A stretch of 64,000 nt of DNA from Vreelandella lionensis (lineage in GTDB: Bacteria; Pseudomonadota; Gammaproteobacteria; Pseudomonadales; Halomonadaceae), in contig NZ_MWVI01000065.1 of assembly GCF_002087295.1 (NCBI RefSeq), forward strand, positions 62,001 through 126,000, written 5' to 3'. A program made the translations under genes and the position numbers. A model generated the notes under the pieces. That model was given only the letters and a program-made list of their open reading frames with translations, searched no databases and was not told the origin of the DNA. Below, in pieces: positions 9,218 to 60,769 of this stretch (its first letter is position 1; every line of letters starts with the position of its first letter).

Positions 9218-9274
9218 TAGCGCTACCGACAATTGGTGTCGGCTTAACACTGCACTTTTGAGGGTTGCAAAAAC

Positions 9275-9544: not shown

Positions 9545-9567
9545 TTGGCTGACATAGGCTCACGCAA

Positions 9568-9596
9568 GCTGCGCCAGCGCAACCCGCTGGCGCAGC
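9568..9596. terminator. Bidirectional hairpin terminator between convergent genes
   Basis: Perfect 12-bp stem GCTGCGCCAGCG / CGCTGGCGCAGC with loop CAACC, between the lipoprotein gene (+) and the DUF3008 gene (-). Very stable, but without a pronounced T run. Confidence 0.7.
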
Positions 9597-9601
9597 ATTG
9601 G

Positions 9602-9790: not shown

Positions 9791-9897
9791 TTAACGACTC
9801 CTGTCAGTTGACTTCCCTTAGGTGCTCACGCTATTAAGCCTAGCAGTGGGTAGTGTTGTTTCCAGACTGACGAGCGCGTTTAACATAAGAGAGCTCC

Positions 9898-10365: not shown

Positions 10366-10473
10366 GCGATACAAATCAGAGTCAGCGCATGGCAAAGCAG
10401 GGGGTGGCACTTTCTGGTATGGTGCTCCACATTATCGGTTTGCTGGGCAACACGCCCCCTTCAGGAATTTTTT

Positions 10474-11871: not shown

Positions 11872-11982
11872 CGACGTATTCAAAACAATGCTGATGTGTA
11901 TCACTTGGTCGTCAGCGTATTCGCGACTCGCGCATTCGCCATGTAGATGTCTGGCATGAGATAGGAGCCTTCGCAGCAAGCT

Positions 11983-12840: not shown

Positions 12841-12938
12841 CCCCAATAGTGATAAACTGAGGCAACGCTTAGCAGAGTAAGTAGTTGGATGAAACGACTC
12901 TGCCATATCGCATAGCCGAAAGATCACCGGAGGGGAGT

Positions 12939-13982: not shown

Positions 13983-14049
13983 CGTCGCGATCATTACGCT
14001 AACGTTCCTAAGCCGTACTCCCTTTTATCGCGTCATGTAAGGACTCTTC

Positions 14050-15941
14050 ATGCTGTCACGTCTGCTCTCGCCGCTGTTCCGTTTTTTTGAGGAGCGCGTT
14101 AACCCCTACCCAGAGGGTGAGGTCACCACACCGCCCAAAGGGTTGCTGTCCTTCATTTGGCACTTTTCGCGCCCGGTGTGGCCGTGGCTGCTAGTGATGT
14201 CGCTGATTACGGCAGTGGTATCTGCCGCAGAGGTGGTGTTCTTTAGCTACATGGGAGATTTGGTGGATTGGCTGGGCGGCGTCGGGCGCGCCGATTTTTG
14301 GGCCAACCACGGGCTGTGGTTGGCGGGCCTTGGTTTGTTAGTGGTGGTGGGCCTGCCGCTACTGGTGCTGCTGCAGTCGCTGGTCACCCACCAGAGCATT
14401 TTTGGTAAATACCCGATGATTGGCCGCTGGCTCTCTCATCGCCATATGCTCAGCCAGAGTCTGGCGTTCTATCAAGATGAGTTTGCCGGGCGGGTATCGC
14501 AAAAAGTGATGCAAACTGCGCTGGCCGTGCGGGAAACCGTCACGAAAGTGATGGATCTGATGGTGTACGCCATCGTTTATTTTACCGGGGCGGCCATTCT
14601 GTTGGGACGCGCCGATCCATGGCTGCTGCTGCCGCTAGGCCTTTGGCTGATCGGCTATTTGGGCATCATGCGCTTTTTCGTACCGCGCCTGCGGGATGTT
14701 TCCATGGCCCAGGAGGATGCTCGCGCGCAAATGACTGGCCGCGTGGTGGATAGCTACAGCAATATCCAGACTATCAAGCTGTTTGCCGATACTCAGCGCG
14801 AAGAGCGCTACGCCAAAGATGCTATGGAGGGCTTTATGGTCACCGTGCATCGCCAGATGCGTTTGGTCACGGTGATGAGCGTCTGCTTGACGCTGCTTAA
14901 TACGCTGCTGCTAGTTGGCACGGCAGGCATGGCGATTGCCGCGTGGTACATGGAGGCGATCTCCCTGGGCGTGCTGGCCATCGCCATTGCCCTGGTGATG
15001 CGGATCCGCTTTATGTCCGACTGGATTTTATGGGAAGTCGCCGGGCTGTTTGAAAACATCGGCACGGTGCAGGATGGCATGAACACCATCGCCCAGGAGC
15101 CGACGGTGAAAGACGCGCCCATCGCCAAAGCGCTGACCGTACCCAACGGCGAGATCGTCTTCGATACGCTGCGCTTCCAGTATGCCCAGGCAAAAGGGGA
15201 GAGCAAAAATGTGTTTGATGGGCTGAACCTGACCATCAAGCCCGGTGAAAAGATCGGCCTGATTGGACGCTCTGGGGCGGGGAAATCGACCCTGGCGAAC
15301 CTGCTGCTGCGCTTTTACGACTTGCAGGGCGGGCGCATTTTGATCGACGGACAAAACATTGCTGAGGTGACCCAGACCTCGCTGCGCCATCAGATCGGCA
15401 TGGTGACCCAAGACACCTCGCTGCTGCACCGCTCGCTGCGGGACAACATCCGCTACGGCAGCCCGAATGCCAGCGATGCGGATGTCTGGCAGGCGGCGTG
15501 CCGCGCCCATGCTGATCCTTCATCAACGACCTAGTCGACCCCAAAGGGCGGCGAGGTTTGGATGCTCATGTGGGTGAGCGGGGCGTGAAGCTCTCCGGCG
15601 GCCAGCGCCAGCGTATTGCCATTGCCCGGGTGCTGCTCAAAGTCGCCCCGATTCTGGTGTTGGATGAAGCCACCTCGGCGTTGGATTCCGAAGTCGAAGC
15701 GGCGATTCAAGAGCAGTTGGATGCCTTGATGGAGGGCAAAACCGTGATTGCCATCGCCCATCGGCTCTCCACCATCGCCATGCTGGACCGTTTGATTGTG
15801 GTGGCTGAAGGGCGCATGGTGGAAAGCGGCACCCACCAGGAGTTGCTCGCCCGAAACGGCATTTATGCAGGCCTTTGGCAGCGCCAGTCGGGCGGCTTTT
15901 TGGGCAACGACCTTGATCCTGATGACAACGCCCCCATTTGA
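14050..15941 (+). CDS. ABC transporter, fused permease and ATPase (one apparent frameshift)
   Basis: About 630-residue half-transporter of the exporter type: six-helix membrane domain (residues 1-350), then nucleotide-binding domain with Walker [11 protein letters not shown]-loop, signature [10 protein letters not shown], Walker [13 protein letters not shown] and H-loop IAHRLST. The frame breaks at about 15517, where one base is missing between the Q-loop and the signature motif. Restoring it gives [26 protein letters not shown] and continuous coding. Multidrug- or lipid-exporter-like; substrate unknown. AAGGA lies seven bases before the ATG. The next gene, the oxidoreductase, follows after 45 bases and may be co-transcribed. 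Confidence 0.9.
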
Positions 15942-45441: not shown

Positions 45442-46428
45442 ATGAACCGAATGAAAACGCTGACGCTTGCCTGCGCCGCAGCCGCCTTGGCGGTCTCCTC
45501 CGTTAGCGCCCAGGCGCGTGACTTCCGTTTAGGGCTGATTACCCCCGCCCAGCATCTGTGGTCCACCGAAGCCGAAGCGTTTGCGCAGACGCTAAATGAG
45601 CGCTCAGGCGGCGAGCATAGCGTGAGCGTGTTTCCTGCTCAGCAACTAGGTAACGAAGCGCAAATGGTGCAGCAGCTGCAAACCGGCGCGCTGGACATGG
45701 CCTTTCTAACCATTGCCGAAATCTCCAATCGCATTCCTGATTTTGGCGCGCTCTACGCCCCGTATCTGGTGGACGACGTCAACCACGCGGCGCGCCTGTT
45801 GCGCTCAGATGCGGCCGGTGAACTACTCGACTTGATGCCGGAAGGCGTTGGTCTCGTTGGGGCAGGTTATGGCATGGTGGGTATGCGCCAAGTATTGAGC
45901 CGTAGCCCCATTGAAAGCGCTGAAGATTTGCAGGGCCAGCGGCTGCGTATTACGCCCTTCGAGCCGATCCGCGACTTCTACACCGCCACCGGCGCTGCCC
46001 CTGCACCCATGCCTTTGTTGGAAGTGTACGATGCCCTCGCCAATGGGCAGGTTGATGCCATTGATATGGATTTCGACTCGATTCTGATTTTGAAATTCTA
46101 CGAGCAGGCGAACAACCTGCTGATCTCCAACCATATGATGTTCCCGATGGTGGGGGTGGTGTCTGGGCGCGTCTGGCGCGAGCTCTCTGAAGAAGACCGC
46201 GAGCTGATTGATACCGCCATGTCCGAACACCTGGAGAATGTATTGACAGGTTTTGAGGAGATGGATGCCGCTCAGGAAGAGGAAATTCGCGGGTTGGACA
46301 TCAATATTGTCGAAGCCGATGCCGAGTTCTTCTCTGAGGCGATTGCCGAGTGGGAAAGTATTTGGGCACCGAAAGCCCCTATGTTGGAAACCCTGCGCGC
46401 CGAGGCTGACCGCCTGCGCGACGAGTAA
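45442..46428 (+). CDS. TRAP transporter solute-binding protein (DctP family)
   Basis: A 328-residue periplasmic binding protein. Signal peptide KTLTLACAAAALAVSSVSAQA, then the DctP fold: AEAFAQTLNERSGGEHSVSVFPAQQLGNEAQMVQQLQTGALDMAF, and the substrate Arg region QGQRLRI, with EVYDALANGQVDAIDMD typical of the family. Ligands are usually carboxylates or related acids; this one is not assigned. First gene of a three-gene TRAP operon. GAGG lies seven bases before the ATG. Confidence 0.94.
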   Translation: MNRMKTLTLACAAAALAVSSVSAQARDFRLGLITPAQHLWSTEAEAFAQTLNERSGGEHSVSVFPAQQLGNEAQMVQQLQTGALDMAFLTIAEISNRIPDFGALYAPYLVDDVNHAARLLRSDAAGELLDLMPEGVGLVGAGYGMVGMRQVLSRSPIESAEDLQGQRLRITPFEPIRDFYTATGAAPAPMPLLEVYDALANGQVDAIDMDFDSILILKFYEQANNLLISNHMMFPMVGVVSGRVWRELSEEDRELIDTAMSEHLENVLTGFEEMDAAQEEEIRGLDINIVEADAEFFSEAIAEWESIWAPKAPMLETLRAEADRLRDE

Positions 46429-46471
46429 TCCTTAACGTAAAAAAAGCCGTTGATAAAGGCCTTTAATCATC

Positions 46472-47007
46472 ATGTTGCAACGCCTTTCCAAAGGGCTTGC
46501 CCGTTGTGAAGAGATCACCGCCGCTGCCTTGGCAGCGGCGGTGACGTGTTTAATTCTCACAAATATCGCCTTTCGCGCGCTGGGCAGCCCGCTTTACTGG
46601 GTCATGAACTGGCGATTTACGCCATGATCTGGATGACGTTCTTGATTGCTGGGGCGGTGTTGAAACGCCGCCCGGGCATCGCGGTGACACTGGTGAGCGA
46701 CCTGCTGCCGCCAACGGGTAGAAAGCTGGTCGGCGTGGCGGTGGATGCCATGGTGCTTCTGTTTGCCCTGCTGCTGGTATGGCTCTGCTGGCGTTGGTAC
46801 CAGCCGCTGACGCTGGCCCAAACCGGCTTCGATACCCGGGCGTTTCAGGGGCAAACGTTCAATTTTATCTATGCGGAAAGCACCTCCACCCTGGGCATTA
46901 AAAAGTTCTGGGCGTGGCTGATTGTGCCCTGGTTTGCGCTCTCGCTGAGCCTGCACAGCGTGGCGAACCTGACGCAATCGCTAATGGCATTAAGGGGGCG
47001 GGTATGA
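46472..47007 (+). CDS. TRAP transporter small permease (DctQ family), one apparent frameshift
   Basis: About 178 residues, four transmembrane helices. The first 43 codons (MLQRLSKGLARCEEITAAALAAAVTCLILTNIAFRALGSPLYWV) are in another frame. One A is missing near 46603, and restoring it gives YWVNELAIYAMIWMTFLIAGAVLKRR, the family block with the conserved W-x-E-E/N-E helix end and later LPPTGRKLVGVAVDAMVLLFAL. It forms the membrane complex with DctM. The TGA overlaps the DctM ATG. Confidence 0.9.
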
Positions 47008-48269
47008 CGGTCGCGGTGTTCTTGCTGCTGCTACTGGGAGCGGTGCCTATTGCGCTAGTGCTGGCGCTTACGGCGATGTGGTATATCCAGGCCTCTGGCA
47101 ATACGGTGCTGTTTGATTCCTACCCGCAGCAGCTGTTTAGCGCCATTGAAAGCTACGGCCTACTGGCGATTCCGCTATTTATGCTGGCCGGGGAGTTGAT
47201 GAACGAGGGCGGGCTGACCAAGCGCTTGATTGCCCTGGCGCGGATTCTGGTGGGAGGCTTTCGCGGTGGCTTGGCTTATATCAACCTAGTCGCCAATATG
47301 ATGATGGCGGCGATTATTGGCTCGGCGGCCTCGCAAATCGCCATTATGTCCCGCGCTATGGTGCCTGCGATGGAGGAGGAGGGGTACGACACGCCCTACA
47401 GCGCGGCGATTACGGCGGCGGGTGGGCTGCTGTCGCCGATTATTCCGCCCTCCATGCTATTTGTACTGTTTGGGGTGATGGCCCAAGTACCCATTGCGGA
47501 GATGTTTATCGCTGGGCTACTGCCGGGGCTGTTGCTGGGCGCGAGTTTCTTCGTGGTCATCGCCCTGGTGGGGCTGGTGCAACAATACCCGAAAGGGCAG
47601 TGGCCCAGCCGTCAACAGGCGCTGCACGATGCGCTATGGGGCATGCCCGCGCTGCTGATTCCGGTGATTATTATCGGCGGCATTTTGCTTGGCATTGCGA
47701 CGCCCACGGAGTCGGCGGCGCTGGCCTCGCTGGCGGCGCTGTTAATGGGACGCTTTGTGTACGGCGATCTGCGTTTGAGTCAGCTTCCTCAGGTGCTCAC
47801 GCGCACGGCGATTAATGCTGGGCTGGTGATTATGCTGATTGCGGCGGCAGGCGTGTTTGGCTGGGGAGTGATTTACGAGCAGCTACCGCAAATGGCCGCT
47901 GCGTGGATTGCCGCGCTGACCAGCAGCCCGTTTCTGTTTCTGCTGCTGGTGATTGGGGCGCTGCTGCTAGTGGGAATGGTGATTGATGGGATTGCCGCAC
48001 TGATTCTGGTGGTGCCTATTTTAATGCCCATCGCTCAAAGCCAGTTTGCGATTAGCCCTTACCAGTTTGGCGTGGTGGTCTGCCTGACCCTGGTGATGGG
48101 GTTACTCACCCCGCCAGTGGGCGCGGGGCTGTTTATCGCTTCCTCCATGACCGGTGCGCCGCCGCTAAAAATCTTCCGAGCGCTGCTGCCCTTTTTATTG
48201 GCGACCCTCGTCACGCTGGTGCTGCTGGCGTGGTTGCCCTGGCTAACCGACGGGTTGGTTCGGCGTTAG
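47004..48269 (+). CDS. TRAP transporter large permease (DctM family)
   Basis: A 421-residue, about 12-helix Na+-coupled permease of the ion-transporter superfamily. Recognisable are MLAGELMNEGGLTKRLIALARILVGGFRGGLAYINLVANMMMAAIIGSAASQIAIMSRAMVPAMEEEGYD, AAGGLLSPIIPPSM (the first hairpin loop) and GLLTPPVGAGLFIAS (the second). The true start is ATG 47004 overlapping the DctQ stop; the longer open frame to 46914 lies inside dctQ. Last gene of the operon. Confidence 0.95.
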   Translation: MTVAVFLLLLLGAVPIALVLALTAMWYIQASGNTVLFDSYPQQLFSAIESYGLLAIPLFMLAGELMNEGGLTKRLIALARILVGGFRGGLAYINLVANMMMAAIIGSAASQIAIMSRAMVPAMEEEGYDTPYSAAITAAGGLLSPIIPPSMLFVLFGVMAQVPIAEMFIAGLLPGLLLGASFFVVIALVGLVQQYPKGQWPSRQQALHDALWGMPALLIPVIIIGGILLGIATPTESAALASLAALLMGRFVYGDLRLSQLPQVLTRTAINAGLVIMLIAAAGVFGWGVIYEQLPQMAAAWIAALTSSPFLFLLLVIGALLLVGMVIDGIAALILVVPILMPIAQSQFAISPYQFGVVVCLTLVMGLLTPPVGAGLFIASSMTGAPPLKIFRALLPFLLATLVTLVLLAWLPWLTDGLVRR

Positions 48270-48293: not shown

Positions 48294-49172
48294 CTAGGCC
48301 GCGCTGTTGTCTGTCAGCGGCATGACATCTACTTCCACTTCTAGCTGGTGTTCGCCGCCTCCATTCATTACGCCTTTGAGCGGTGCTACGTCGGCGTAAT
48401 CTCGGCCCCAGGCCAGCACCGGGTGCTGTTCACCGGCCACTGTGCCGTTGGTCGGGTCTAGCGCTAGCCAGCCCCACTCTGGAATCCAAGTGGCGAGCCA
48501 TGCGTGGGACGCATCCGCCCCTATCAACCGTGGCTGTCCGGGCGGTGGCTGAGTTTCTAGGTAGCCGCTCACATAGCGCGCCGCTAATCCCACCGAGCGC
48601 AGGGAGCCAATTGCAAGGTGGGCAAAGTCTTGGCAGACACCACGGCGATTGGCCAGCACTTCGCTGAGCGGTGTGGCCAGCGTGGTAAAGCTAGGGTCGT
48701 ACTCAAAGGTGTCGTAAATCAGTTGATTAAGCGCCAGCGCGGCATCAACCAGCGGGCGGCCGGGCGTGAAACAGCTGTGGGCGAACTCAGCCAACTCGTC
48801 GTTGCGACGAATAAAGGGTGAGTCGAGCCGGTAGAGCTGCATATCGAAGCGGCTATCGTGACGCAGCTGTTCCGCGACACTTTCCCAAGCGGGGGAGCTG
48901 CTAGGTAGCGGCCCCAGCGGATGGGTATTGAGGGGGGTGACCACGGTCACATCCAGGGTCTGGTGCACCTCTTCCATGGCAAAATAGAGCACCCGGTTGC
49001 CGAAAACATCTCGGCGCTCTGCCTGCACCTGGGGCATCGGACTAATGGTGAGCGTTGATGCGCCGCACTGCTGGTGCTGTGTCCTGCGTGGCAGCACCCT
49101 GGCCTCGCTATGACATAGCGTCACCGGGGCGCTGTAGTGGTAGCGCGTGGGGTGTCGCAGGGTGTAGTTCAT
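48294..49172 (-). CDS. Transglutaminase-fold peptidase/amidase, short form
   Basis: A 292-residue protein with an N-terminal Bact_transglu_N domain (LRHPTRYHYSAPVTLCHSEARVLPR) and a transglutaminase-like core with the full triad: Cys in RRGVCQDFAHLAIG, His in DASHAWLATW and Asp in LALDPTNG. No signal peptide, so cytoplasmic. In bacteria such proteins accompany circularly permuted ATP-grasp and alpha-E genes and are thought to act as peptidases or amide-bond-forming/cleaving enzymes on a peptide product. The ATG overlaps the alpha-E stop (ATGA). Last gene of the minus-strand unit beginning at 55018. Confidence 0.92.
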   Translation of the reverse strand: MNYTLRHPTRYHYSAPVTLCHSEARVLPRRTQHQQCGASTLTISPMPQVQAERRDVFGNRVLYFAMEEVHQTLDVTVVTPLNTHPLGPLPSSSPAWESVAEQLRHDSRFDMQLYRLDSPFIRRNDELAEFAHSCFTPGRPLVDAALALNQLIYDTFEYDPSFTTLATPLSEVLANRRGVCQDFAHLAIGSLRSVGLAARYVSGYLETQPPPGQPRLIGADASHAWLATWIPEWGWLALDPTNGTVAGEQHPVLAWGRDYADVAPLKGVMNGGGEHQLEVEVDVMPLTDNSAA

Positions 49173-50077
49173 TCGTCGGGCTCCATGCTGACAAGTTGGC
49201 GCGGCCGCTCCACGTGACTAAAGTGGCTGTGGCTAATGGCATCCGAAAGCGCGTTTAGCGGGGTAATCAGTTCATCCAGTAGCTGCTCCAGCGCTGCTTG
49301 GGCATCGGGGGTGTCGGCTAAATGGCTCAAGCGATCAATGTCGGCGAGGTGCAGCGCGGCATTGGCTTGAATGAGCAAGCGGCGTTCGGCATTGCGGTAG
49401 GGCGATGAGCTGCCGGGCAGCCTGTCCATTTGCCGCTCAAGGCGCTTGAGCATATAGCCCACCGAGCGTGGGTTGGTCTCATCGAATAGCAGTAGATCCA
49501 AAATCGCTTCTGGGTGCAGCTCGCTGCGGTAGCGCCGCCGGTAAGCGGTAAAGTTATCTGAGGTGGCGAGCACTACTTCCCACAACGCCAGCCCCGGCGA
49601 GTGGGGGGCTTTCAATGTGAGCTTGAGCAGCGAAAGCAGCCCTATTACTCGGTCCAGGAAGCGCCCGATATCCATAAACCGCCAGCCGTAATGGTGGGGC
49701 ATCGTTTCGTTACATAGGCCAAAGAAGGCGGCAGTCTGCGCTGAGAGCCCTTCGCAGGCGCGGCGTGCAGCGCTGGCACCTAGGCTTGGGTTAAAGGTAT
49801 CCACCCGCTGGCGCAACTGGTTAATTACTCCCAAGGAGTCATCGCCTAGATGGTCGCGCACGCTGCGGGCGTTGCGCTGCATTTGGGCAAATAGCGGCTG
49901 CAGCGCCTGGGGGTCATGCTCATCAAACTGGGCTAGCAGCGCTGTGCGTTTTTGTGCAAAGCCCTCGAGCGGCGGCTTTGCACCTTCCTCGTCATGGCTG
50001 AGCGTGGTGATTTCCAGGGCCAGCAGCAGCTCATCCAGCAGCTGGTCGGCGATTTCGTCCTGGTCGTACTCCATCAT
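49169..50077 (-). CDS. Alpha-E domain, C-terminal part of an ATP-grasp/alpha-E fusion or separate protein
   Basis: A 302-residue all-helical protein. NETMPHHYGWRFMDIGRFLDRV and SVGYMLKRLERQMDRLP mark it as alpha-E (DUF403). It lacks the family's first-helix signature; that piece (LPSRVAESLFWLGRYGERLDARARLL) is at the end of the preceding ORF. Most likely both ORFs are one fusion protein split by a one-base change at about 50077-50083. The alternative is genuine translational coupling, since stop and start overlap as ATGATG/TGA. Alpha-E proteins have no known catalytic activity and probably bind the ATP-grasp or its peptide substrate. Confidence 0.85.
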   Translation of the reverse strand: MMEYDQDEIADQLLDELLLALEITTLSHDEEGAKPPLEGFAQKRTALLAQFDEHDPQALQPLFAQMQRNARSVRDHLGDDSLGVINQLRQRVDTFNPSLGASAARRACEGLSAQTAAFFGLCNETMPHHYGWRFMDIGRFLDRVIGLLSLLKLTLKAPHSPGLALWEVVLATSDNFTAYRRRYRSELHPEAILDLLLFDETNPRSVGYMLKRLERQMDRLPGSSSPYRNAERRLLIQANAALHLADIDRLSHLADTPDAQAALEQLLDELITPLNALSDAISHSHFSHVERPRQLVSMEPDE

Positions 50078-51576
50078 CGCATCAGCGCTTCACGCAGCAA
50101 GCGGGCGCGGGCATCCAGGCGCTCGCCGTAGCGCCCTAGCCAGAATAGGCTTTCTGCCACTCGGCTGGGGAGGTCGGTGCCATCGCGGGTAGCCACCACT
50201 GGACCGCGGGCTTGGCGTAGTTGGCTGACGTGGGGCTGAGGGGTACTTGCCGTGACCCAGACATCTTTAACGATGGGGCTACTCAGCGAAGGCGAACCAG
50301 GGTCGCCTACCCAGGCTAAGCCGCCAGGCATTACATGGTAGTCGCTGGGCTGCTGGCGTTGGTTGGTGACGCTGCGAGGTAGCCGAGAAACAAAACAGCG
50401 CAGATTCAGGCTGGCCGGTGAGAGCCGTTGCATCTGTGGGTCGAATACCGGTGCCGAGGCTGGCCGTGTGCTGGCATCTGCGTTGGGTAGCAGTAACTCC
50501 TCACCAAGTAAGTGTTGGCACAGCGCAGGAAGGTAAGCGGCCAGTTCGGGAATTTCTAACACGCCAACGCCCAGGGTGTTAGACATCGCCACGCCGCTGG
50601 TGCGCGTCGCTTGCAGTAGCCCAGGTACGCCGAGCTGTGAATCGCCGCGCAGCTCTAATGGGTCGCAGTAGGCATCATCACAGTGGCGTAGCACCACATC
50701 TACTGGTTGCAAGCCGCCCAGCGTGCGCAGCCACAGCTGGCTATCACGCACGACCATGTCCTGGCCTTCTGCTAAGTCGATATTCAGGTAGTTGGCGAGG
50801 TAGGCGTGCTCAAAGTAGCGCGGGGTACCTGGGCCGGGTGTCAGCAGAACAACATTAGGGTTGTCCCGGTGCTGATACGCCATGGATATCAGGGTGCGGT
50901 GGTATTTTTCTAAAAAACCCGCGAGCCGTTTCAGCGGCGCATTGCGGTACATTTCAGGCAGGGCACGGGCCATTAAAATACGGTTTTCCAGCGCAAATCC
51001 GGTGCCTGAAGGTGCTTGCAAGCGGTCGCCAATCACGCGCCACTGGCCTTCGGTATCTTGAATAACGTCAATGCCATGAAAGCTAATCGCCGGGCGATCG
51101 CTGGGCTGCGAGCTGTGGCAAGGTAGTAAAAAGTGGTGAGAGGCCAGGATAGCTTGAGTAGGCAGCAGGCCCGTATCAAACAGCGTATGGGCGCCGTAAA
51201 TGTCGTCGTAAAGGGCGTTAAACAGGCGGCTGCGCTGGGTTAAGCCTACTTCCAGTGCTTGCCATTGCGCTTGGTTGATCACCCAGGGAAGTGGGTCGAG
51301 CCGCCACGAGCGCCCTTGGGTGTCTTCATGCATATTGAAGATCACGCCATTTTCCGCCAGCAAGCGCTGAATCTCTTCATGGCGTTGGTGACGGCCATCC
51401 GCTCCGAGTGCTTCCAGGGCGCCTAGCAGGCTTTGCCAGCCAGGGCGTAGCTGCCCTTGCTGGTCAAGCATTGCATCAAATGTGCCGGGCTGTCCCTTGC
51501 CTAGCTGGTTCAAGTAATCCTCAACGAGCCCAGCGGCACCGAGCTCAAGCAGTGAGGGAGAGACAGGGGCAGTCAT
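50074..51576 (-). CDS. Circularly permuted type-2 ATP-grasp protein, first copy
   Basis: A 500-residue predicted peptide ligase. The ATP-grasp order is permuted: an N-terminal region with DPLPWVINQAQWQALEVGLTQRSRLFNALYDDIYG, then IDVIQDTEGQWRVIGDRLQAPSGTGFALENRILMARALPE. This is followed by [23 protein letters not shown] (second ATP-grasp lobe region) and VKDVWV-type strands. The last 30 residues are the first helix of an alpha-E domain. It is more diverged than the second copy at 55453: the usual [11 protein letters not shown] segment is not recognisable here and the equivalent loop reads LLPNADASTRPASAPVFD, so catalytic competence is uncertain. Follows the DUF2126 gene by 88 bases on the minus strand. 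Confidence 0.88.
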   Translation of the reverse strand: MTAPVSPSLLELGAAGLVEDYLNQLGKGQPGTFDAMLDQQGQLRPGWQSLLGALEALGADGRHQRHEEIQRLLAENGVIFNMHEDTQGRSWRLDPLPWVINQAQWQALEVGLTQRSRLFNALYDDIYGAHTLFDTGLLPTQAILASHHFLLPCHSSQPSDRPAISFHGIDVIQDTEGQWRVIGDRLQAPSGTGFALENRILMARALPEMYRNAPLKRLAGFLEKYHRTLISMAYQHRDNPNVVLLTPGPGTPRYFEHAYLANYLNIDLAEGQDMVVRDSQLWLRTLGGLQPVDVVLRHCDDAYCDPLELRGDSQLGVPGLLQATRTSGVAMSNTLGVGVLEIPELAAYLPALCQHLLGEELLLPNADASTRPASAPVFDPQMQRLSPASLNLRCFVSRLPRSVTNQRQQPSDYHVMPGGLAWVGDPGSPSLSSPIVKDVWVTASTPQPHVSQLRQARGPVVATRDGTDLPSRVAESLFWLGRYGERLDARARLLREALMR

Positions 51577-51664
51577 GTTCCTGGTTGTCCTAAGCGAGTA
51601 GGGGACGGATTATCCTGCAGCTAACGCTGATAAGAAAGTATTAGGCTTAACATTAGAAGTCGCA

Positions 51665-54600
51665 TTAGCGTGGACTCCAGCGCAGGTCCAGCGTGCATGG
51701 CAGTTCCTGACTGGGCATTTCCGGAGTAGATGACTGATAGCCATGGCTGTGGCCACTGTCGCTAAACCGGCCCAGGCGTCTTGCTTCTGCTTCAAACGCA
51801 TTGACGGGGAAGGTTTCAAAGCTGCGTCCTGTGGGGTGTACCACATGGTAAGTACAGCCTGCGACAGCACGTTGGTTCCAAGTGTCGATGATGTCAAATA
51901 CTAGCGGCGCGTGAATAGGAATTTGTGGGTGCAGCGCAGAGGGCGGCTGCCATGCGCGGTAACGCACACCCGCTACTGCCTCGCCGTTGCGTCCGGTCGG
52001 TGCTAGCGGTACTTGGCGGCCGTTACAAGTCACCTCATAACGGTCACCGCTCATACCATTCACTTTTACCTCTAAGCGTTCTACCGAGGAGTCGACGTAG
52101 CGCGCAGTGCCGCCTGCGGTGGCTTCTTCGCCCACTACGTGCCACGGCTCAATGGCCTGGCGCAGCTCAATGGAGAGCATAGGCGTATGCAGCCGACCGT
52201 GAACGGGGAAGCGAAACTCCAAGAAGGGCGCAAACCAGGCGAGCTCAAAATCAAACCCATGATGGCGCAGGTCACTCAGCACATCGCTCAAGTCCTCCCA
52301 TAAATAGTGGGGCAGCATCCAGCGGTCTTGCAGGGCGCTGCCCCAGCGCACGGGCTTGGCGCGGTACGGCGTTTTCCAGCAGCGGGCGACCAGCGCACGA
52401 ATCAGCAGCATCTGCATGAGTCCCATACGCGCATGGGGAGGCATCTCAAAACCGCGCAGCTCTAACAGCCCGAGGCGACCGCTATCGCTATCTGGGGAGT
52501 AGAGTTTATCAATACAGAATTCAGCGCGGTGCGTATTACCGGTTAAGTCGGTCAGCAGGTGGCGCAGCAAGCGGTCGACTAGCCAGGGCTGAACCACCTC
52601 TCCTTCGGGCATTTGCTGCAGGGCAATCTCCAGCTCATACAGGCGCTTCATGGCGCGCTTCGTCTACGCGGGGTGCCTGGCTGGTAGGGCCAATAAATAG
52701 CCCAGAAAACAGGTACGAGAGGCTGGGGTGATGCTGCCAGTAGGTGACGAGGCTAGCGAGTAAATCCGGGCGACGCAGAAATGGTGAGTCATCTGGGGTC
52801 AAGCCGCCCAGCGTGACATGGTTACCGCCACCGGTGCCGGTGTGGCGGCCATCCAGCATAAACTTTTCGGTGCCCAGGCGGGCTTGGCGCGCTTCGTCGT
52901 AAAGCCGCTCGGTTTGCACGACCAGAGTTTGCCAGCTTGCCGCTGGCATAATGTTGACCTCAATGACACCCGGGTCGGGAGTGATCTGGAAGCTCTCCAG
53001 GCGCGGGTCACGTGGCGGAGCGTAGCCTTCGATCATGACCGGGCAAGCCAGCGTATGGGCGCACTCTTCGATGCTACTCAGCAGGTCAAGGTAGTGCTCA
53101 AGCTGCGTCAGCGGTGGCAGGAAAATATGTAAGCGCCCTTCCCGTGGCTCGATACACAGGCTGGTGTGAATAATCTTGTGCTCGCGGTCATCTTCGGCAC
53201 TGGGCTGCTGCTGAACCGCTTCGCCTTCAGGGTGGCTTTGGCTTGGGTGTAGGCTCTGGCCTATACGCTCCGCGCTGGTAAAACGGTGCTGCTCGGCATG
53301 ACGGCGGGCCACTTCGCCGTGAATGTCACCCAGCGCGGGGCGCGGGGCAAACAGCGACTGCGGCTGGGGCTGGTCTTCCGGGTCGGCCCAAGGCAGAGCG
53401 GAAAGCGGCAGGCGAAGGCCCATGGGCGAGTCGCCGGGCACTAGAAAAAGGTGGTCGCGTTTCAAAGGCCAGCGCCCGCTCTCCCAACGATGCGATTGCG
53501 CGAGGGAGTGGCGCAGCGGCAGGGCATAGCCGACGACTGCACTCAGGTCCTGTTCCAGCAGGCGTGCCAGGCGGCGGCGCTCGGCGTCATCTTTTAAATC
53601 AACTGTGCGTGGGTCACCGGTCACCGGCAGGGTTTGTTCTTTCCATAGGTAGTAGTAGGCATCTTCAAAGGCGGGAATCCAGAAGTGCTCTGCGACTCCT
53701 AGGCGTTCGCTTAGAGCACGGGTGAAGCGCTGGGCCATGGCGTCATCGGCCACTACGGCAGGCGCGCCTTCCCTGCAGGCCAGCCAGCTTGGGTCGCGCC
53801 ACAGCGGCACGCCATCTTTGCGCCAGTAGCAGGCCAGTGCCCAGCGGGGTAGCGGCTCGCCGGGGTACCACTTACCTTGCTGCTGTTGATTCACACTGCC
53901 GGGGCCGTAGGCGGCCTGCAGCCGTGGTTAACAGCGCTTCGGCACGCTCGCGTTTGTGCTCACCCAAGGCGTCGGTGTTCCACTGGGGGCTTTCCATATC
54001 ATCAATGGAGACAAAGGTAGGCTCGCCGCCCATGGTCAGGCGCACATCCTGCTGGTTGAGTTCGTGGTCAACTTGGTCGCCTAGTGCAAGAATCTGCTGC
54101 CACTGTGGGTCACTATAGGGCTTGGTGACCCGAGGATCTTCATGAATGCGCTCGACGCGCATCTCTACGTCAAATTTCACCTCGCACTTATCTGAAAATC
54201 CGGTAATGGCGGCGGCGCTTCCCGTGGTAGGCGTGGCGGCTAGCGGAATATGGCCTTCGCCAGCAAATAGGCCAGAGGTGGGGTCAAGCCCTACCCAGCC
54301 CGCACCGGGCAGGAACACTTCGGTCCATGCGTGAAGGTCGGTGAAATCCACCTCGGTACCACTGGGGCCATCCAGCGCTTTGACATCCCGCGTTAGCTGA
54401 ATCAGGTAGCCCGAAACAAAACGCGCCGCTAGGCCCAAGTGGCGCAGAATCTGCACCAGCAGCCAAGCACTATCACGGCAGGAGCCGCTGGCTAGGGCTA
54501 AGGTTTCCTCGCAGCTTTGAAACCCCAGGCTCCATGCGTACTAGGTAGCTGATGTCTTTCTGCAAGCGCTGGTTGAGCGCCACGAGAAAATCGACGCTGG

Positions 54601-55018
54601 TGGTCGGTTCAAGGGAGACGTCTTTTAACCACTCCAGTAAGCGCGGCCCTGCCTCGGTGACTTCCAGGTAAGGTCCTAACTCCTTGGTGAGCTCATCTGG
54701 ATAAGTGAAGGGGATTTGCTGGGCCACATCATCCAAGAAGAAATCAAACGGGTTGATCACCGTCATCGGGGCGACGAGTTCGACGGCGATGGTGAGCTCT
54801 TTACGTGGCTCGGGAAATACCACGCGAGCATTAAAGTTGCCGAAGGGGTCCTGCTGCCAGTTTAAAAAGTGATCGTCGCCTGAAATATGCAGTGAATAGG
54901 CATCAATATGCGTACGGCAGTGGGGCGCCGGTCGTAAACGGATAACGTGGGGTGAGAGCCTAACGGGACGGTCGAAACGATAAGTCGTGCGGTGATGCAA
55001 GGCAACGCGAATGGTCAT
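51665..55018 (-). CDS. Large transglutaminase-DUF2126 protein (three apparent frameshifts)
   Basis: About 1,117-residue multidomain protein. It has Bact_transglu_N at the start (VALHHRTTYRFDRPVRLSPHVIRLRPAPHC) and a transglutaminase core with Cys in ASGSCRDSAWLLVQ, His in DLHAWTEVFLPG and Asp in GLDPTSGLFAGEGHIPLAA. A DUF2126 region of about 750 residues follows (LTMGGEPTFVSIDDMESPQWN, PGVIEVNIMPAASW, DGRHTGTGGGNHVTLGG, EFCIDKLYSPDSDSGRLGLLELRGFEMPPHARM). DUF2126 contains glutamine-synthetase-like ligase motifs (EVN.MP; GGGNH), suggesting an amide ligase. Extra bases at 54520-54522, about 53926 and about 52645 break it into four open frames; removing them restores the continuous family sequence. 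Head of the minus-strand unit. Confidence 0.9.
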
Positions 55019-55190
55019 GAGCCACCCTCAAAAAAAGCCAGAAGTAACCGCGCAGATAAACAAGGCATCGGTTAAGAAAGATAAGTAAGCAGAAGTATCG
55101 TTGGAGTTGGCGCTTTTTGCAGCTGCAATATGCGTAAAGTCGTTTAAGAAGTGTGAAAAATGGTGGCTATATCATGTGGTGCGCGCTGGC

Positions 55191-55206
55191 TGCACTAACT
55201 TGGTGC
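55191..55206. promoter_or_regulatory. NtrC-like binding site
   Basis: TGCACT-AACTT-GGTGC(T), compared with the NtrC consensus TGCACC-N5-GGTGCA: 10 of 12 consensus bases match with the correct 5-base spacer. A weaker half-site TGCACTAATAAG lies 43 bases on (55234). The distance to the predicted transcription start (about 55365) is roughly 165 bp, a normal enhancer position. Confidence 0.5.
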
Positions 55207-55338
55207 TTTTTGATGCATGGCGCTTTATGAAAATGCACTAATAAGACTCAGTGGCGCACAAAAAGTGTTCTTTTTAAGGAGGAGTAAGGTTAACTTTGAA
55301 CGTCATGGTTGGTTTAAGCGTTGAAACAATGGGCAAAG

Positions 55339-55353
55339 TGGTATGGCTTTTGC
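55339..55353 (+). promoter_or_regulatory. Sigma-54 (-24/-12) promoter candidate for the plus-strand unit
   Basis: TGGTATG-N4-TTGC: GG at 55340-55341 and GC at 55352-55353, exactly 12 bases apart as required. It matches the consensus TGGCACG-N4-TTGC at 9 of 11 fixed positions, with C-to-T at the other two. It would give a start near 55365 and a leader of about 88 bases. No comparable -24/-12 pair was found facing the minus-strand unit. Confidence 0.55.
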
Positions 55354-55452
55354 GTGCTTATATAGTCAGACCGCTACGTAGATTGTCTGCGTCAGGCCTA
55401 CACTACTGATTGAGGAAGTTGCCGATTCAACCCTTGCGCCAGGAGAGCGCCC

Positions 55453-56936
55453 ATGAGCCAAGTAGACTGGAACAACTATACGTGCCGTGATTTTTACGAT
55501 GAGCTATTAGCGGCACCGGGAAAACCACGCGCCTCCGCGGATGAGCTATGTAATATGCTGGCGCGCTTTAGCGCTGAAGAGTTGGCAGAGCGTAAAACCG
55601 CCGCTGAAATTGCCATCCGAACAATGGGGATTACTTTTACCGTCTATTCCGAAGGGGCCATGATTGATCGTGCATGGCCCTTTGATATTGTGCCAAGGAT
55701 TATACCGGCGAATGAGTGGCGTAAAACGGAAGCTGGTTTAAAGCAACGTGTTCAAGCGCTTAACTTGTTTATTGATGATATTTATCACAAACAAAACGTT
55801 GTTAAAGATAAAGTGTTACCTGCCGAAGTGCTTGCTCAATCAGCAAATTTCCGCCCTCAGTGTGTAGGCATCAATCCGCCCCATGGCGTCTGGGCGCATA
55901 TCTGTGGTTCCGACCTGGTACGCGGCGGCGATGGCACGCTTTATGTGTTAGAGGACAATCTACGTATTCCTTCCGGTGTTTCCTATATGCTGGAAAACCG
56001 CAACGTGACCAAGCGCGTGCTGCCGGAGCTGTTTGCGTCGGGCAAGATTTTGCCGGTGGATGATTACGTTGCCCAGCTTTACGACATGCTGGCGGCGATG
56101 TCGCCACGCCCTGGGGACGACCCTCAAGTAGTGGTATTAACGCCCGGTATTTATAACTCCGCCTATTTTGAGCACGCTTATCTTGCTCAGCAAATGGGCG
56201 TTGAGCTGGTGCAAGGCAGCGACCTGCTAGTGGATGAGGACGATTTGGTCTTCATGCGCACGGTAGAGGGGTTGCGCCGGGTCGATGTGATTTATCGCCG
56301 TGTGGATGATGAGTTTCTTGACCCGGAAGCCTTCAATCCAGACTCCATGCTGGGTGTGCCGGGCCTAATGCGCGCTTGGCGGGCGGGCAAAGTAGCATTG
56401 GCCAATGCCCCCGGTGCCGGTGTGGCTGATGATAAAGTGGTGTATGCCTTTGTGCCGGAGCTGATTCGCTACTATCTGGATCAAGAACCCCTGCTGCCCA
56501 ACGTGCCCAGCTACCTGTGTATGTTTGAGGATGACCGCAAGTATGTACTCGATCATTTAGATGAGCTGGTGGTGAAGCCCGCCAACGAGTCTGGTGGCTA
56601 CGGCATGTTGATCGGCCCGCGCTCTACCAAAGAGACCCGCGACGAGTTTGCGCGTTTGATCAAGGAGAACCCGCGTAACTACATGGCCCAGCCTACCCTA
56701 GCGCTTTCCACCAGCCTACGCTTGCCAATGGATTACCCCAGCCCCGCCATGTGGATCTACGCCCGTTTATTCTCTCTGGCCCTGAAACCCACGTTACTAC
56801 CGGGGGGTTAACCCGTGTGGCACTGGTGGAGGGATCGCTGGTGGTGAACTCTTCCCAAGGGGGCGGCAGTAAAGACACCTGGATCGTCGAGACCGATGAG
56901 AACGCGGCGGGTGCCGCTGAGCAGAAAGGAGCCTAG
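55453..56936 (+). CDS. Circularly permuted type-2 ATP-grasp protein, second copy (one apparent frameshift)
   Basis: About 494-residue predicted peptide-bond-forming enzyme with the full family motif set: [90 protein letters not shown] (ATP-binding Lys and Gly loop), then [13 protein letters not shown] and [30 protein letters not shown]. An extra C near 56742-56745 breaks the frame 30 residues before the end of the catalytic core; without it the gene reads to 56936. CAGGAGAG precedes the ATG. It starts the plus-strand unit; alpha-E follows four bases after the stop. Confidence 0.93.
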
Positions 56937-56940
56937 CGCC

Positions 56941-57939
56941 ATGCTGTCACGCGTAGCTGAAAACCTCTACTGGATGGCGCGTTACATTGAACGGGCCGAA
57001 GATACCGCGCGGCTGTTGAGCGTCAATAGTCACCTGATGCTGGATTTACCGCGCCATTTACCGCTGGGCTGGGCACCGCTGATTGAAATGACCGGCACGC
57101 TTGAAACCTTTAATGAACGCCATAGCAGCTTTGATGAGCGCAACGTGGTGCACTTTTTGTGTGCCGACGCCCAGAACGGTAGCTCGATTCTTTCAGCGCT
57201 GGCGAGTGCCCGGGAAAACCTGCGTACCACCCGCGATGTGGTACCCAGAGAAATCTGGGAAGAGGTCAACCAGCTTTACCTTAACGTGGCCGACCACGCG
57301 GAAAGCGGCGTCAGCCCGCGGCGCCGAGATGCATTTTTGAAAAACGTGATTCGCGGTTGCCAAACGTTGACTGGCTTGATTGAGGGCACGCTCAGCCATG
57401 GTCCAGCGCGCACCTTTATCAAGTTAGGCCGCCAGTTGGAGCGGGCAGACATGACCACACGTATCGTTGACGTGCGCTCAGCCAGCCTGCTGCCGCAAAA
57501 CCCTGAAGAGCTATTGCCGTTTGAAAACCTGCAGTGGATGAGCGGGCTGAAATCGTTAACGGCTTATCAGATGTATCGTCAGCAGGTGCGTTTACGAGTA
57601 CGTGGGCCAGATGTGCTGCGCTTTTTACTGCAAGATCCGCACCTGCCACGTTCCATTGCCTGCAGTCTGGAAACCTTAGGTCAGGAGCTCCAGCTACTGC
57701 CGCGTCAGGACCGTGTAGCGGCCACGGTGTCGCTGGTGCGGGCAGATGTGGTAGATGCAGATATCCAAGCGCTTGCGCAATCCCCCAGCAAGCTGCACGC
57801 CTTTGTCGATGATCTACAGATTGGCATTGCCGCTATTCACGATACGCTCAGCGCCACCTACTTTGTAAGCGGCGACAGCGTTCCACGGGTGGCCCAACGG
57901 CAAAGCCAAAGCCACGCAGGAGACCACGATAACGACTAA
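56941..57939 (+). CDS. Alpha-E domain protein (DUF403), second copy
   Basis: A 332-residue all-helical protein with the canonical start MLSRVAENLYWMARYIERAEDTARLL and later HGPARTFIKLGRQLERADMTTRIVDVR and MSGLKSLTAYQMYRQQ. It nearly always follows the permuted ATP-grasp gene, and the four-base gap plus AAAGGAGCC before the ATG shows co-translation. Predicted to form a complex with the ATP-grasp, with no known enzymatic activity. Its stop abuts the convergent metallopeptidase gene with no gap, so the transcripts overlap. Confidence 0.94.
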   Translation: MLSRVAENLYWMARYIERAEDTARLLSVNSHLMLDLPRHLPLGWAPLIEMTGTLETFNERHSSFDERNVVHFLCADAQNGSSILSALASARENLRTTRDVVPREIWEEVNQLYLNVADHAESGVSPRRRDAFLKNVIRGCQTLTGLIEGTLSHGPARTFIKLGRQLERADMTTRIVDVRSASLLPQNPEELLPFENLQWMSGLKSLTAYQMYRQQVRLRVRGPDVLRFLLQDPHLPRSIACSLETLGQELQLLPRQDRVAATVSLVRADVVDADIQALAQSPSKLHAFVDDLQIGIAAIHDTLSATYFVSGDSVPRVAQRQSQSHAGDHDND

Positions 57940-59000
57940 TTAAGGGGCTTGAGAGCTGGCGTTTGCGTTCTGAATGAGTTCATGCAGGTACGCCAGTTTC
58001 TCCCTGACGGCGGGGGCAATGACCCCCCGTGCTAAATCCAGCGGACCCATTTCCCGGTTTAGCTCATTCACCGCCATACCTACCTGATGAAACGCCCGCA
58101 GCATGCTGTCCAGCGTGCCGTCATACTCGGCGCGAGAAAGTCCCATGTGGAGTGCAGTATCCAGCACGGCTACCATATCCAGGTAAAACGCGAATGTTTC
58201 AGCGAAGTCTTCCCAAGGGTGCATGGAGGCGTAGGCGGAAATAAAGCGTGTCGGCCAGTCAGTGGGTGCTCCTTGCTGGTAGTACTGTTCTAGCGCATCA
58301 CTATAAGTGGGGTTGTTGTGATCGCCAAAGACACGGCAACTGGTGCTCTCATCTTGGCCTTTTACGAGAAGATCCCAGTAGTAGTGGCCAATCTCATGGC
58401 GAAAGTGACCGATCAGCGTACGGTGAGATTCATTCATATCCACGCGTAGCCGCTCCCGCTCAACGTCATCGGCTTCTTTGACATTGATAGTGATATGCCC
58501 ATTAGCATGGCCCGTATACACCTTTTCTTGGCTTGCTGTAGAGCGCCATAGCCCTTGGTCGGGTAGCGCATCGGCCATAAACGAGAAGCTCAGCGGCACA
58601 CGGATATTTTCCCCTTCGGTACCGTGGGGCAGCTTGAGCAGATCCAAGGTATGGAAGAGCCGCCGCTTGGCCGCTTCCAGCGCCGCCCAGCGCTCGCGGT
58701 TACCGGGAGTACCCAGGTCAGGAATCACATCGTTGTAGCGGCAGCAGTCGCAGAGTGAGTCTGCATGACCTTCAGCCATGACCACCATGCGGTTACACAC
58801 GTTTTCCGCCAGTAGTTGTGACATTGCATGAGCGCTGTGCCGCAGCCTTCATGGGTACAACGGTAGCCGCCGTTGTCTAGCGGTTCCAGCGCGACAATAT
58901 TGCTACAAGTAGGGCACCAGCCAACATCAGACTCGCAGGCCAGGCAGTGAGTGTTTTCAAAAAACAGTGGGTTGCCGCAGCGGCAGCTAAATGTCTGCAT
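57940..59000 (-). CDS. Putative zinc-binding metallopeptidase with N-terminal zinc ribbon (one apparent frameshift)
   Basis: About 353 residues. The N-terminus has several Cys pairs (FSCRCGNPLFFENTHCLACESDVGWCPTC, then YRCTHEGCGTAL) consistent with zinc ribbons. The C-terminal domain carries HEIGH (in GHFRHEIGHYYWDLLV), the HExxH metalloprotease motif, and MHPWEDFAETFAFYLDMV, whose Glu/Asp may be the further ligand. One base is missing near 58810, separating the two parts; restoring it gives CHNYLAENVCNRMV. The family is listed as putative zinc-binding metallo-peptidases. Its position beside the ATP-grasp/transglutaminase locus suggests it may process the product. Confidence 0.88.
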
Positions 59001-59191: not shown

Positions 59192-59221
59192 TTGACGTTT
59201 ACGTTAACTTGCTGATATACC
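59192..59221 (+). promoter_or_regulatory. Candidate sigma-70 promoter of mmsA
   Basis: TTGACG (59192-59197) followed after 18 bases by TATACC (59216-59221), or after 16 by GATATA. It lies about 55 bases before the mmsA start. The remaining 190 bases back to the metallopeptidase start show no other feature. Confidence 0.45.
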
Positions 59222-59274
59222 CTACAGGCTCCCTATTAGAATCCATAACAAACACAACCACGAGGATCAGTGTT

Positions 59275-60769
59275 ATGTCCGTTCGCGAAATACCCATGTA
59301 TATCGATGGTCAGCCAGTGATGTCGCAAAGCCAGGAGTGGCGCGACGTTGTTAACCCGGCCACCCAAGAGGTAGTGGCTCGCGTTCCATTCTGCACCTCA
59401 GAAGAGGTCGAGCGGGCCGTTGCCAGTGCCAAAACGGCGTTTAAAGAGTGGCGCAAGGTGCCGCTGGGTAAACGCATGCGCATTATGCTCAAGCTTCAGG
59501 CCCTTATTCGCGAGAATACGGCAGAGCTTGCCGCGTTAATTACCGAAGAGCATGGCAAAACACTGCCCGATGCCGAGGGTGAAGTAGGCCGCGGTCTTGA
59601 GGTGGTGGAACATGCTTGCTCCATTACCTCGCTGCAGCTAGGCGAGTTGGCGGAAAACGCAGCGAACGAGGTAGATGTTTATACCATGCACCAGCCGTTA
59701 GGCGTGGGCGCGGTATTACGGCATTTAACTTCCCGATTATGCTGCCCTGCTTTATGTTCCCGCTGGCTATTGCCACGGGTAACACCTTTGTATTGAAACC
59801 CTCCGAGCAGGACCCGAGCTCTACCATGCGGCTAGTCGAGCTAGCCCATGAAGCGGGCATTCCCGCTGGCGTGTTAAACGTGGTGCACGGTGGTCCGGAT
59901 GTAGCGAATCAAATTGCTGACCACCAGGATATCAAGGCGCTGTCGTTTATCGGCTCGACTCATGTCGGCTCGCTGCTATACAACCGTGCCGCGGCGGCAG
60001 GCAAACGGATGCAGGCGATGATGGGGGCCAAAAACCACTGCGTCGTTATGCCTGACGCTAACCGCAGCCAAGCGATTGACAGCCTGTTAGGGTCTGCCTT
60101 TGGCGCGGCCGGGCAGCGCTGCATGGCGAACTCGGTAGTGGTGCTGGTGGGGGAAGCCCGGGAGTGGATAAAAGATATCGAAGCCGGTGCCCGTGGCATG
60201 AAAGTAGGGCCAGGCTCCCAGCGCGATGCAGACCTGGGGCCTTTGGTATCGCCCCAGGCGAAAGAGCGGGTTGAGCGCTTAATCAGCGCCGGTGAAAAAG
60301 AGGGCGCCACACTTCTGGTAGATGGCCGTGGCTATACGGTGGACGGCTACCCGGATGGCAACTTTGTAGGACCGACGCTATTTGCCGATGTAACGGCGGA
60401 TATGACCATTTATCGGGAAGAGATTTTCGGCCCTGTGCTGTGGTGGTTAGCGTAGAAACGCTGGATGGCGCCATCAACTTTATTAATGCCAACCCCAATG
60501 GCAACGGCACGTCAATTTTTACCAACTCTGGCTGGGTGGCTCGCCGGTTTGAAACGGATATCGACGTTGGCCAAATTGGTATCAATGTGCCGATTCCTGT
60601 TCCCGTTGCTTACTTCAGCTTTACCGGATCTCGGGCATCCAAGCTGGGTGACTTAGGCCCCAACGGCAAACAGGCGATTGCTTTCTGGACGCAAACTAAG
60701 ACCGTCACGGCCCGTTGGTTCGAACCTGAAAACGTCTCTAGTGGGATTAACAGCACCATTTCGTTGTAA
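59275..60769 (+). CDS. mmsA: CoA-acylating methylmalonate-semialdehyde dehydrogenase (two apparent frameshifts)
   Basis: About 498-residue aldehyde dehydrogenase converting methylmalonate or malonate semialdehyde plus CoA and NAD to propionyl- or acetyl-CoA, in valine, inositol and beta-alanine breakdown. MmsA-type features are ITAFNFPIMLPCFMFPLAIA, LSFIGSTHVG, the GAKNHCVVMPDA block (instead of LGG) and the nucleophile in GAAGQRCMANS, with INVPIPVPVAYFSFTGSRASKLGD near the end. One G is missing at 59712-59713 (repair GVGAGITAFNF) and one near 60439 (repair GPVLVVVSVETLDG). No mmsB or regulator gene is adjacent in the window. Confidence 0.95.

Follow-up and report, generated by a model that had tools for sequence, protein, structure and literature searches.

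Comparison with described systems

A gene set combining a circularly permuted (CP) ATP-grasp, an alpha-E protein, a transglutaminase (TGase) and the peptidase Anbu was predicted by Iyer et al. 2009, as cited in the available parts of PMC6376114 and PMC5666114, and here we describe a locus of this kind in Vreelandella lionensis that carries two ATP-grasp copies. It occupies positions 48,294 to 59,000 of a 64,000-nucleotide stretch of contig NZ_MWVI01000065.1 (assembly GCF_002087295.1, positions 62,001 to 126,000), the whole of which we call the window. Unit A is the side with the copy-1 ATP-grasp and alpha-E 1, and unit B the side with the fusion of the copy-2 ATP-grasp to its own alpha-E. The ATP-grasp, alpha-E and TGase genes lie together here as in the system of Iyer et al. 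2009, and as that set was predicted in 2009 the locus is not a new kind of system; it differs, however, in lacking Anbu in the genus, in having a Peptidase_Mx gene beside unit A, and in that its second ATP-grasp appears to be a pseudoenzyme without the ATP segment. The best explanation of the whole, to which we give a probability of about 0.6, is an Anbu-less, nitrogen-controlled system in which copy 1 is the ligase and copy 2 a non-catalytic partner, with the TGases and Peptidase_Mx acting on the amide linkage.

The Anbu operon of Yersinia bercovieri shares the ATP-grasp, alpha-E and TGase with our locus and differs in being a four-gene operon that includes Anbu and has no unit B (PMC6376114, in the text available). 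The same domain annotations are found in Burkholderia cenocepacia BCAM1233-1236 and Pseudomonas putida PP_2685-2688, genes under NtrC or nitrogen control (PMC5491218, PMC8050072 and PMC3325844, each available in part); that control is experimental whereas the window's is deduced from promoter sequence, and the homology is taken from the annotations in these papers, not from alignment. The initial annotation, which called the system uncharacterised, therefore holds for its product, named in no passage found in the accessible literature, but not for the gene set or for its nitrogen regulation in Pseudomonas and Burkholderia. At the level of fold, both copies resemble glutathione synthetase and glutathionylspermidine synthetase (3n6x, 2hgs, 2io9), copy 2 by model and copy 1 by sequence to 3n6x, and copy 2 differs from these enzymes in lacking the ATP site. 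One apparent literature match for DUF403, PMC3710099, probably concerns DUF4037 instead, judging by the part available, and was discarded.

A Pfam scan found every domain that had been named from the open reading frames (ORFs), i.e., two CP ATP-grasps, two alpha-E regions, two transglutaminases, one of them fused to DUF2126, and a metallopeptidase, each in its expected place and above curated cut-offs (E-values of 1e-8 to 8e-171). On the minus side the matched stretches are those of the first three features below, followed by 51665–55018 (DUF2126 in pieces plus the transglutaminase N-part); in the plus unit and peptidase they are 55453–56811 (CP_ATPgrasp), 56896–57939 (Alpha-E) and 57940–58824 (Peptidase_Mx). 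By Pfam and synteny, alpha-E and transglutaminase genes are adjacent here, as the system requires, and the named close homologues of the proteins are from Vreelandella and Halomonas.

48294–49172, minus strand: TGase 2, a stand-alone transglutaminase-fold protein (Bact_transglu_N and Transglut_core by Pfam; Cys-His-Asp triad)
49169–50077, minus strand: alpha-E part of the copy-2 fusion (Pfam), which a frame break separates here from the ATP-grasp
50074–51576, minus strand: copy-2 CP ATP-grasp part, a putative pseudo-ATP-grasp (Pfam; motif alignments; fold match to 3n6x)
51665–53894, minus strand: DUF2126, a predicted circularly permuted glutamine-synthetase-like amidoligase (Pfam), here in two frames
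53872–55018, minus strand: TGase 1, the N-terminal part of the TGase-DUF2126 fusion (Pfam; triad; fold match to 3isr), here in two frames
55192–55206, no strand assigned: NtrC-type dyad GCAC-N7-GTGC matching at 8 of 8 positions (site scan of the divergent region)
55339–55353, plus strand: sigma54-type -24/-12 promoter upstream of the copy-1 ATP-grasp (score 4 of 6; in the aligned block)
55453–56940, plus strand: copy-1 CP ATP-grasp, the only one of the two ATP-grasps whose ATP site is intact (Pfam; 3n6x), its last part here in another frame
56941–57939, plus strand: alpha-E 1, a stand-alone helical partner (Pfam, E-value 2.8e-88; ER motif)
57940–59000, minus strand: Peptidase_Mx, zinc ribbon plus HExxH metallopeptidase (Pfam), convergent to unit A and here in two frames

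DUF2126, predicted to be glutamine-synthetase-like, is reportedly a further member of the predicted set. On the minus strand the order is TGase-DUF2126 (55018 to 51665), copy-2 ATP-grasp/alpha-E (51576 to 49169) and TGase 2 (49172 to 48294), and divergent from it on the plus strand run the copy-1 ATP-grasp (from 55453) and alpha-E 1 (to 57939). The initial reading of two divergent units was correct as far as these genes go; the metallopeptidase, however, is convergent to the plus unit, so that the locus is transcribed in three directions.

The two ATP-grasp copies and their partner enzymes

The two copies differ in their ATP sites. Copy 1, which is related to 3n6x by sequence, keeps the E-x-N metal motif (as E-D-N), the Lys and the GG in 54/54 and 79/79 aligned homologues, and the window's copy-1 piece contains EDNLR, consistent with an intact ATP site. 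Copy 2 is without E-x-N in 167/167 and 33/33 aligned rows, in none of which either the Glu or the Asn is kept, and does not have the combination of a metal-binding E-x-N and an ATP-binding Lys/Gly loop that marks an active ATP-grasp. It matches the CP_ATPgrasp_2 profile only over positions 1–271 of 374, the ATP-binding part being missing; in the window's genus a 59-residue ATP-binding segment is gone, a loss that forms one clade. As this part is equally missing in intact relatives, its absence is not due to a frame break. What remains of copy 2 matches the fold of 3n6x (in the model of a close relative), and its grasp part has a ratio of nonsynonymous to synonymous substitution (dN/dS) of 0.075 over 447 of 703 genus pairs, those with dS outside 0.05–2 being dropped. 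An ATP-grasp tree of 742 columns (support 1.0) and one of 117 columns under a wider mask (support 0.993) gave exactly the same split. The motif counts leave out protein P0012 (460 residues), the copy-1 frame of L113, which is long and merged, and all of the window's own broken pieces, and 8 of 120 listed homologues were not placed in alignment A2. Judged by its sequence, copy 2 is thus a conserved pseudoenzyme retained under purifying selection. Our literature search found no paper calling copy 2 of this system inactive, most subscription papers lying beyond its reach.

It had been proposed that the doubled set could make two related products or form a hetero-complex, a view that would fall if both ATP-grasps lacked ATP-binding residues after correction of the sequence; copy 1 has these residues in all aligned sequences, and copy 2 is without the metal motif in all. 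That both ATP-grasps are active ligases making two related products has in its favor the presence of two copies with a recognizable fold, yet with copy 1 keeping its ATP residues, E-x-N absent from all 200 aligned rows of copy 2 (167 + 33) and the whole ATP-binding segment gone in the genus, we consider it very unlikely. One ligase with a retained non-catalytic partner fits better, and of the two proposals we favor the hetero-complex. With one of the two ATP-grasps recognized as a conserved pseudoenzyme, only half of the candidate ATP-grasp chemistry is left.

The broken frames of the window could be taken to mean that copy 2, and the other broken genes, are decaying pseudogenes, as could the progressive loss of ATP-site residues. 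The source genome is 80% complete (3.65 Mb, 100 contigs), and about six uncompensated single-base differences from the nearest relative, L050, break frames at the locus: three fall in TGase-DUF2126 and the others in the copy-2 fusion, in copy 1 and in the peptidase. We compared 38 intact genus genomes (G046 is frame-broken, and the fragmentary G032 and G042 lie outside the sample), in all of which copy 1 and the copy-2 fusion each read through as one open frame; TGase-DUF2126 is one open frame in 35, the other three having TGase 1 alone, and Peptidase_Mx is open in 37 and absent in G068. The copy-2/alpha-E fusion is mostly 800–823 and TGase-DUF2126 mostly 1116–1117 residues long in the genus. 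Breaks are limited to the window and to G046, whose locus is broken throughout (break positions in the two were not compared), and the window's neighboring aldehyde dehydrogenase is hit as well. Given the open frames in intact relatives, the broken neighbor and the state of G046, errors of the assembly are the likely, if not proven, cause of the breaks, and with the low dN/dS of the grasp part we regard decay as highly improbable. The aldehyde dehydrogenase (window positions 59209–60769) lies in three overlapping frames, as fits an error-rich assembly, and by eye resembles methylmalonate-semialdehyde dehydrogenase. The frame-broken L058 was left out of the open-frame and dN/dS counts, of the divergent-region counts given below, and of the TGase, Peptidase_Mx and alpha-E motif counts.

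The partner enzymes keep their motifs. Alpha-E 1 has an invariant ER motif in 54 sequences; the Cys-His-Asp triad is complete in TGase 2 (38/38 genus and 13/13 outside sequences) and in TGase 1 (38/38 and 10/10), the predicted fold of which resembles 3isr; and HExxH is present in Peptidase_Mx in 37/37 genus and 3/3 outside sequences, with the PF15887 domain and, in the intact relative L050, a Pfam match to its zinc ribbon. DUF2126 matched its profile at an E-value of 0 in an intact relative of the window. The TGase-DUF2126 model was middling (predicted local distance difference test score of 72 for the whole protein), with glutamine synthetase chains matched only at E-values of 0.41 and worse; the larger DUF2126 piece had no match among PDB sequences at E-values up to 1, and an NCBIfam scan of ten locus pieces gave none.

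Distribution of the two units and their peptidases

We searched 117 genomes of the order, 73 from the genus (the window's own included) and 44 others, and found alpha-E in 59, DUF2126 in 51 (50 above cut-off) and Peptidase_Mx in 71. Within the genus alpha-E is present in 42/73 genomes, and both copies in 41 of these 42, the exception being a 66% complete genome; DUF2126 is above cut-off in 39/42, and Peptidase_Mx lies beside alpha-E 1 in 41/42 (the exception is G068). Alpha-E is lacking in 31 genus genomes, of which 22 carry a single Peptidase_Mx gene and nine carry none, so that these genomes have at most one. A second Peptidase_Mx gene lies distant from the locus at G000:C30:4696-5397.

Outside the genus, 12 of the order's 17 alpha-E genomes have both units and five unit A alone. 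In a class-wide draw of 232 genomes at least 95% complete, with copy 2 called by frame length and score, 73 had alpha-E (the window's own included); a fused copy 2 was found in 22 of the other 72 and none was shown in 50. All 22 also carry a copy-1-type alpha-E, and in G319 and G323, where both frames are long, copy 1 was checked and its motifs are intact. Unit B without unit A was seen neither in the order sample nor in the class-wide draw, and as unit A occurs alone in some genomes, unit B depends on unit A and not the reverse. Co-conservation of the two halves thus holds in the genus but not in the order or class. In L175 (G181), positions 6490–14075 contain DUF2126, a copy-1 ATP-grasp, alpha-E and two Anbu-like frames with no copy 2 in the stretch, so DUF2126 there does not seem to need the pseudo-ATP-grasp. 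Several of 80 wider loci, which were chosen by copy 1 (two are from the window's genus and several are shortened by contig ends), likewise combine DUF2126 with copy 1 in the absence of a nearby copy 2. By record titles, copy 1 and its neighbors occur in Proteobacteria, Planctomycetes, Verrucomicrobia, Cyanobacteria and others.

Anbu, an NTN-hydrolase, often but not always belongs to this system. No Anbu had been seen near the locus, and at E-values up to 1e-10 we likewise found none there or in any of the 73 genus genomes, against 11 of the 44 other order genomes, all 11 with alpha-E. In the fetched stretches of the 80 wider loci, Peptidase_Mx was present in 18, Anbu in 23 and both in five, while 57 had no Anbu. 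We rejected the idea that Anbu and Peptidase_Mx are mutually exclusive alternatives, as the five loci with both compare with 5.2 expected if they were independent; Peptidase_Mx is therefore a recurrent neighbor of unit A and not a strict Anbu substitute. In this genus the composition differs: a single ATP-grasp is ATP-competent, a pseudo-ATP-grasp/alpha-E fusion is retained beside it, both TGases are intact, DUF2126 is usually present, Peptidase_Mx occurs and Anbu does not, and nitrogen control is probable. As a simple, Anbu-free version of the system, Vreelandella lends itself to studying copy 1, copy 2 and the peptidase singly.

Nitrogen-type promoter sites and proposed function

We scanned the divergent regions of 38 loci (37 from the genus plus the window) for sigma54 sites, defined as GG-N10-GC plus a score of 6 further consensus bases, with expected counts from first-order Markov sequences. 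Sites pointing at copy 1 scored at least 4 in 35/38 regions (4.3 expected) and at least 5 in 27/38 (0.6 expected), and an aligned sigma54 block is present in 34/38. Perfect NtrC dyads occur in 13/38 regions (0.5 expected) and dyads with at least 7 of 8 matches in 28/38 (10.3 expected). Towards TGase-DUF2126, sigma54 sites scoring at least 5 are found in 23/38 regions (0.8 expected), the window not being among them; the window's copy-1 site lies within the aligned block, and its NtrC dyad is perfect. By comparison, score 5 is reached by 2.6% and score 4 by 18% of 2898 windows drawn at random from the same loci, and by 2.6% and 12.5%, per strand, of 152 other intergenic regions. The genus loci are related and their sites are not independent events. 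Outside the genus (78 loci), 14 of 48 copy-1 genes with free upstream sequence have a sigma54 site scoring at least 5 (in four the full 6 of 6), compared with 7 among 243 control genes, as do DUF2126 in 3/12 and TGase 2 in 2/6, or 19/88 for system genes in total with copy 2, Anbu and Peptidase_Mx included (Fisher p 3e-7). The copy-1 matches include records titled Pedosphaera (Verrucomicrobia), Planctomycetaceae, Poribacteria and Magnetococcales. In L054, L057, L067 and L071 the divergent region has an extra minus-strand sigma54-like site (AGGCACGTGG[CT]TTGC) near the start of copy 1.

These sites agree with published nitrogen-limitation data, all from sources available in part. Expression of B. 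cenocepacia BCAM1233-1236 is lower in an ntrC mutant (PMC5491218); in P. putida, growth on nitrate versus ammonium raises PP_2685 (Anbu) by 4.4 and PP_2688 (CP ATP-grasp) by 4.0 log2 units (PMC8050072), and PP2685-2687 are up 11.1-, 6.6- and 7.1-fold in a column that we read as nitrogen-limited versus carbon-limited (PMC3325844); and a Bradyrhizobium CP_ATPgrasp gene is listed with an RpoN-type site (PMC13207237). A Caulobacter NtrC preprint was set aside because, in the part available, it deals with another transglutaminase homolog, hvyA. Based on the promoter sequences, the locus is probably under nitrogen-limitation control by NtrC and sigma54 in this genus, and the occurrence of sigma54 sites in several phyla, together with the published data, suggests looking for the product in nitrogen-starved cells.

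We propose that the locus is the Anbu-less Vreelandella/Halomonas version of a widespread CP-ATP-grasp/alpha-E/transglutaminase amide-ligase system that NtrC and sigma54 would switch on under nitrogen limitation. Copy 1, the glutathione synthetase relative and sole ATP-using ATP-grasp, would convert a carboxylate to an acyl phosphate and, with alpha-E 1, join it to an amine. Copy 2, which keeps the ligase fold and part of its conserved surface and not the metal or phosphate site, is joined to an alpha-E of its own; most likely it serves, without catalysis, as a subunit that binds or docks the same substrate and would bring it to TGase-DUF2126 and TGase 2; the Cys-His-Asp TGases and Peptidase_Mx may then trim, transfer or reverse the amide linkage. 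As product we infer a small peptide or a peptide tag with a role in nitrogen economy; the sequence alone fits a tag on proteins, a free peptide or a nitrogen-scavenging intermediate. A bolder version, which we put forward tentatively as one of the less probable readings, is a writer/reader pair present in several phyla: copy 1 would write an amide-linked peptide mark or metabolite in nitrogen starvation, and copy 2, keeping part of the substrate face with its ATP chemistry discarded (completely so in Vreelandella, by the 59-residue loss), would read or hold it through the fused alpha-E and hand it over to TGase-DUF2126, TGase 2 and a peptidase that varies (Anbu, Peptidase_Mx or the two together).

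Several results weigh against the proposed system. Loss of the motif in copy 2 is loss of canonical ATP use and not proof of no activity; pull-downs with the Yersinia Anbu operon showed no specific interactions among its proteins, copy 2 not being in that operon (PMC6376114, in the text available); and Anbu-operon expression was unchanged under various other conditions and the operon was not essential (PMC5666114, likewise). The aligned sigma54 block is absent in four genus loci (L047, L053, L065 and L066, the site of L066 falling outside it), the site in the window has a score of no more than 4 of 6, which 18% of control windows also reach, and outside the genus no own site scoring at least 5 was found for copy 2 (0/12), Anbu (0/6) or Peptidase_Mx (0/4), all with free upstream sequence. 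Finally, DUF2126 is missing in 3/42 genus genomes that keep both ATP-grasp/alpha-E copies, and therefore is not essential to the core reaction. In these three (G011, G045 and G068) TGase 1 is kept with its triad and the DUF2126 part is lost. TGase-1-only genes in the same place (L057 8406–9293, L067 9294–10196 and L071 9721–10722) are 70–75% identical to the window's TGase-1 pieces, the fused versions of intact genus loci being 73–95% identical.

The nitrogen-limitation control indicated by the published data (from partly available sources) and the sigma54 sites could also serve protein tagging for turnover, in which the ligases put a peptide or amino acid on proteins in nitrogen starvation and Anbu or Peptidase_Mx, together with the TGases, take the tag off again or break down its target, as in pupylation. 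Two kinds of peptidase, unrelated in fold, are repeatedly found near unit A, in the counts given above, and deubiquitinase-like and tagging proposals appear in the accessible text of PMC6376114; however, Anbu cleaved none of the substrates tested there, and no AAA ATPase partner is linked to Anbu in that of PMC5666114. Nor did we find a tag gene, small ORFs having been searched in the divergent region only: its 276 small ORFs of at least 20 residues gave no evidence of a precursor peptide, the best recurring in 16–18 of 38 regions and falling where the DNA itself is similar and promoter-bearing. A clustering of 600 flanking ORFs (at least 100 residues, within 5 kb; top 22 clusters, judged by eye) revealed no extra partner, the most widespread family being present in 6 of up to 95 loci. 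On balance tagging is possible but rather unlikely.

The same clustering, in revealing no recurrent catabolic partner, counts against nitrogen scavenging, in which the ligase would join an amine or amino acid to a carrier (glutamate or a peptide) for breakdown and the TGases and peptidase would release nitrogen, as in glutamylation pathways for amine use. Co-regulation with genes for the uptake of urea, nitrate and amines (PMC5491218 and PMC8050072, in the parts available), a correlation with urea metabolism domains in marine metagenomes (likewise from a partly available source) and the fact that a single ATP-competent ATP-grasp is accompanied by several enzymes of hydrolase fold all point towards it; we nevertheless find scavenging doubtful, and less likely than tagging.

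The flanking family present in six loci resembles, by eye, a generic ABC ATPase. A protein of 410–417 residues without a Pfam match lies near unit A in four loci (L106 9059–10312, L117 12532–13785, L114 15320–16561 and L098 2898–4136), and at L085 12130–14076 repetitive frames downstream of Anbu resemble, by eye, a CRISPR-type repeat array read as protein. Beside TGase 2 in the window, frames at 45442–48269 resemble by eye a TRAP-type transporter, with a large membrane protein at 46914–48269.

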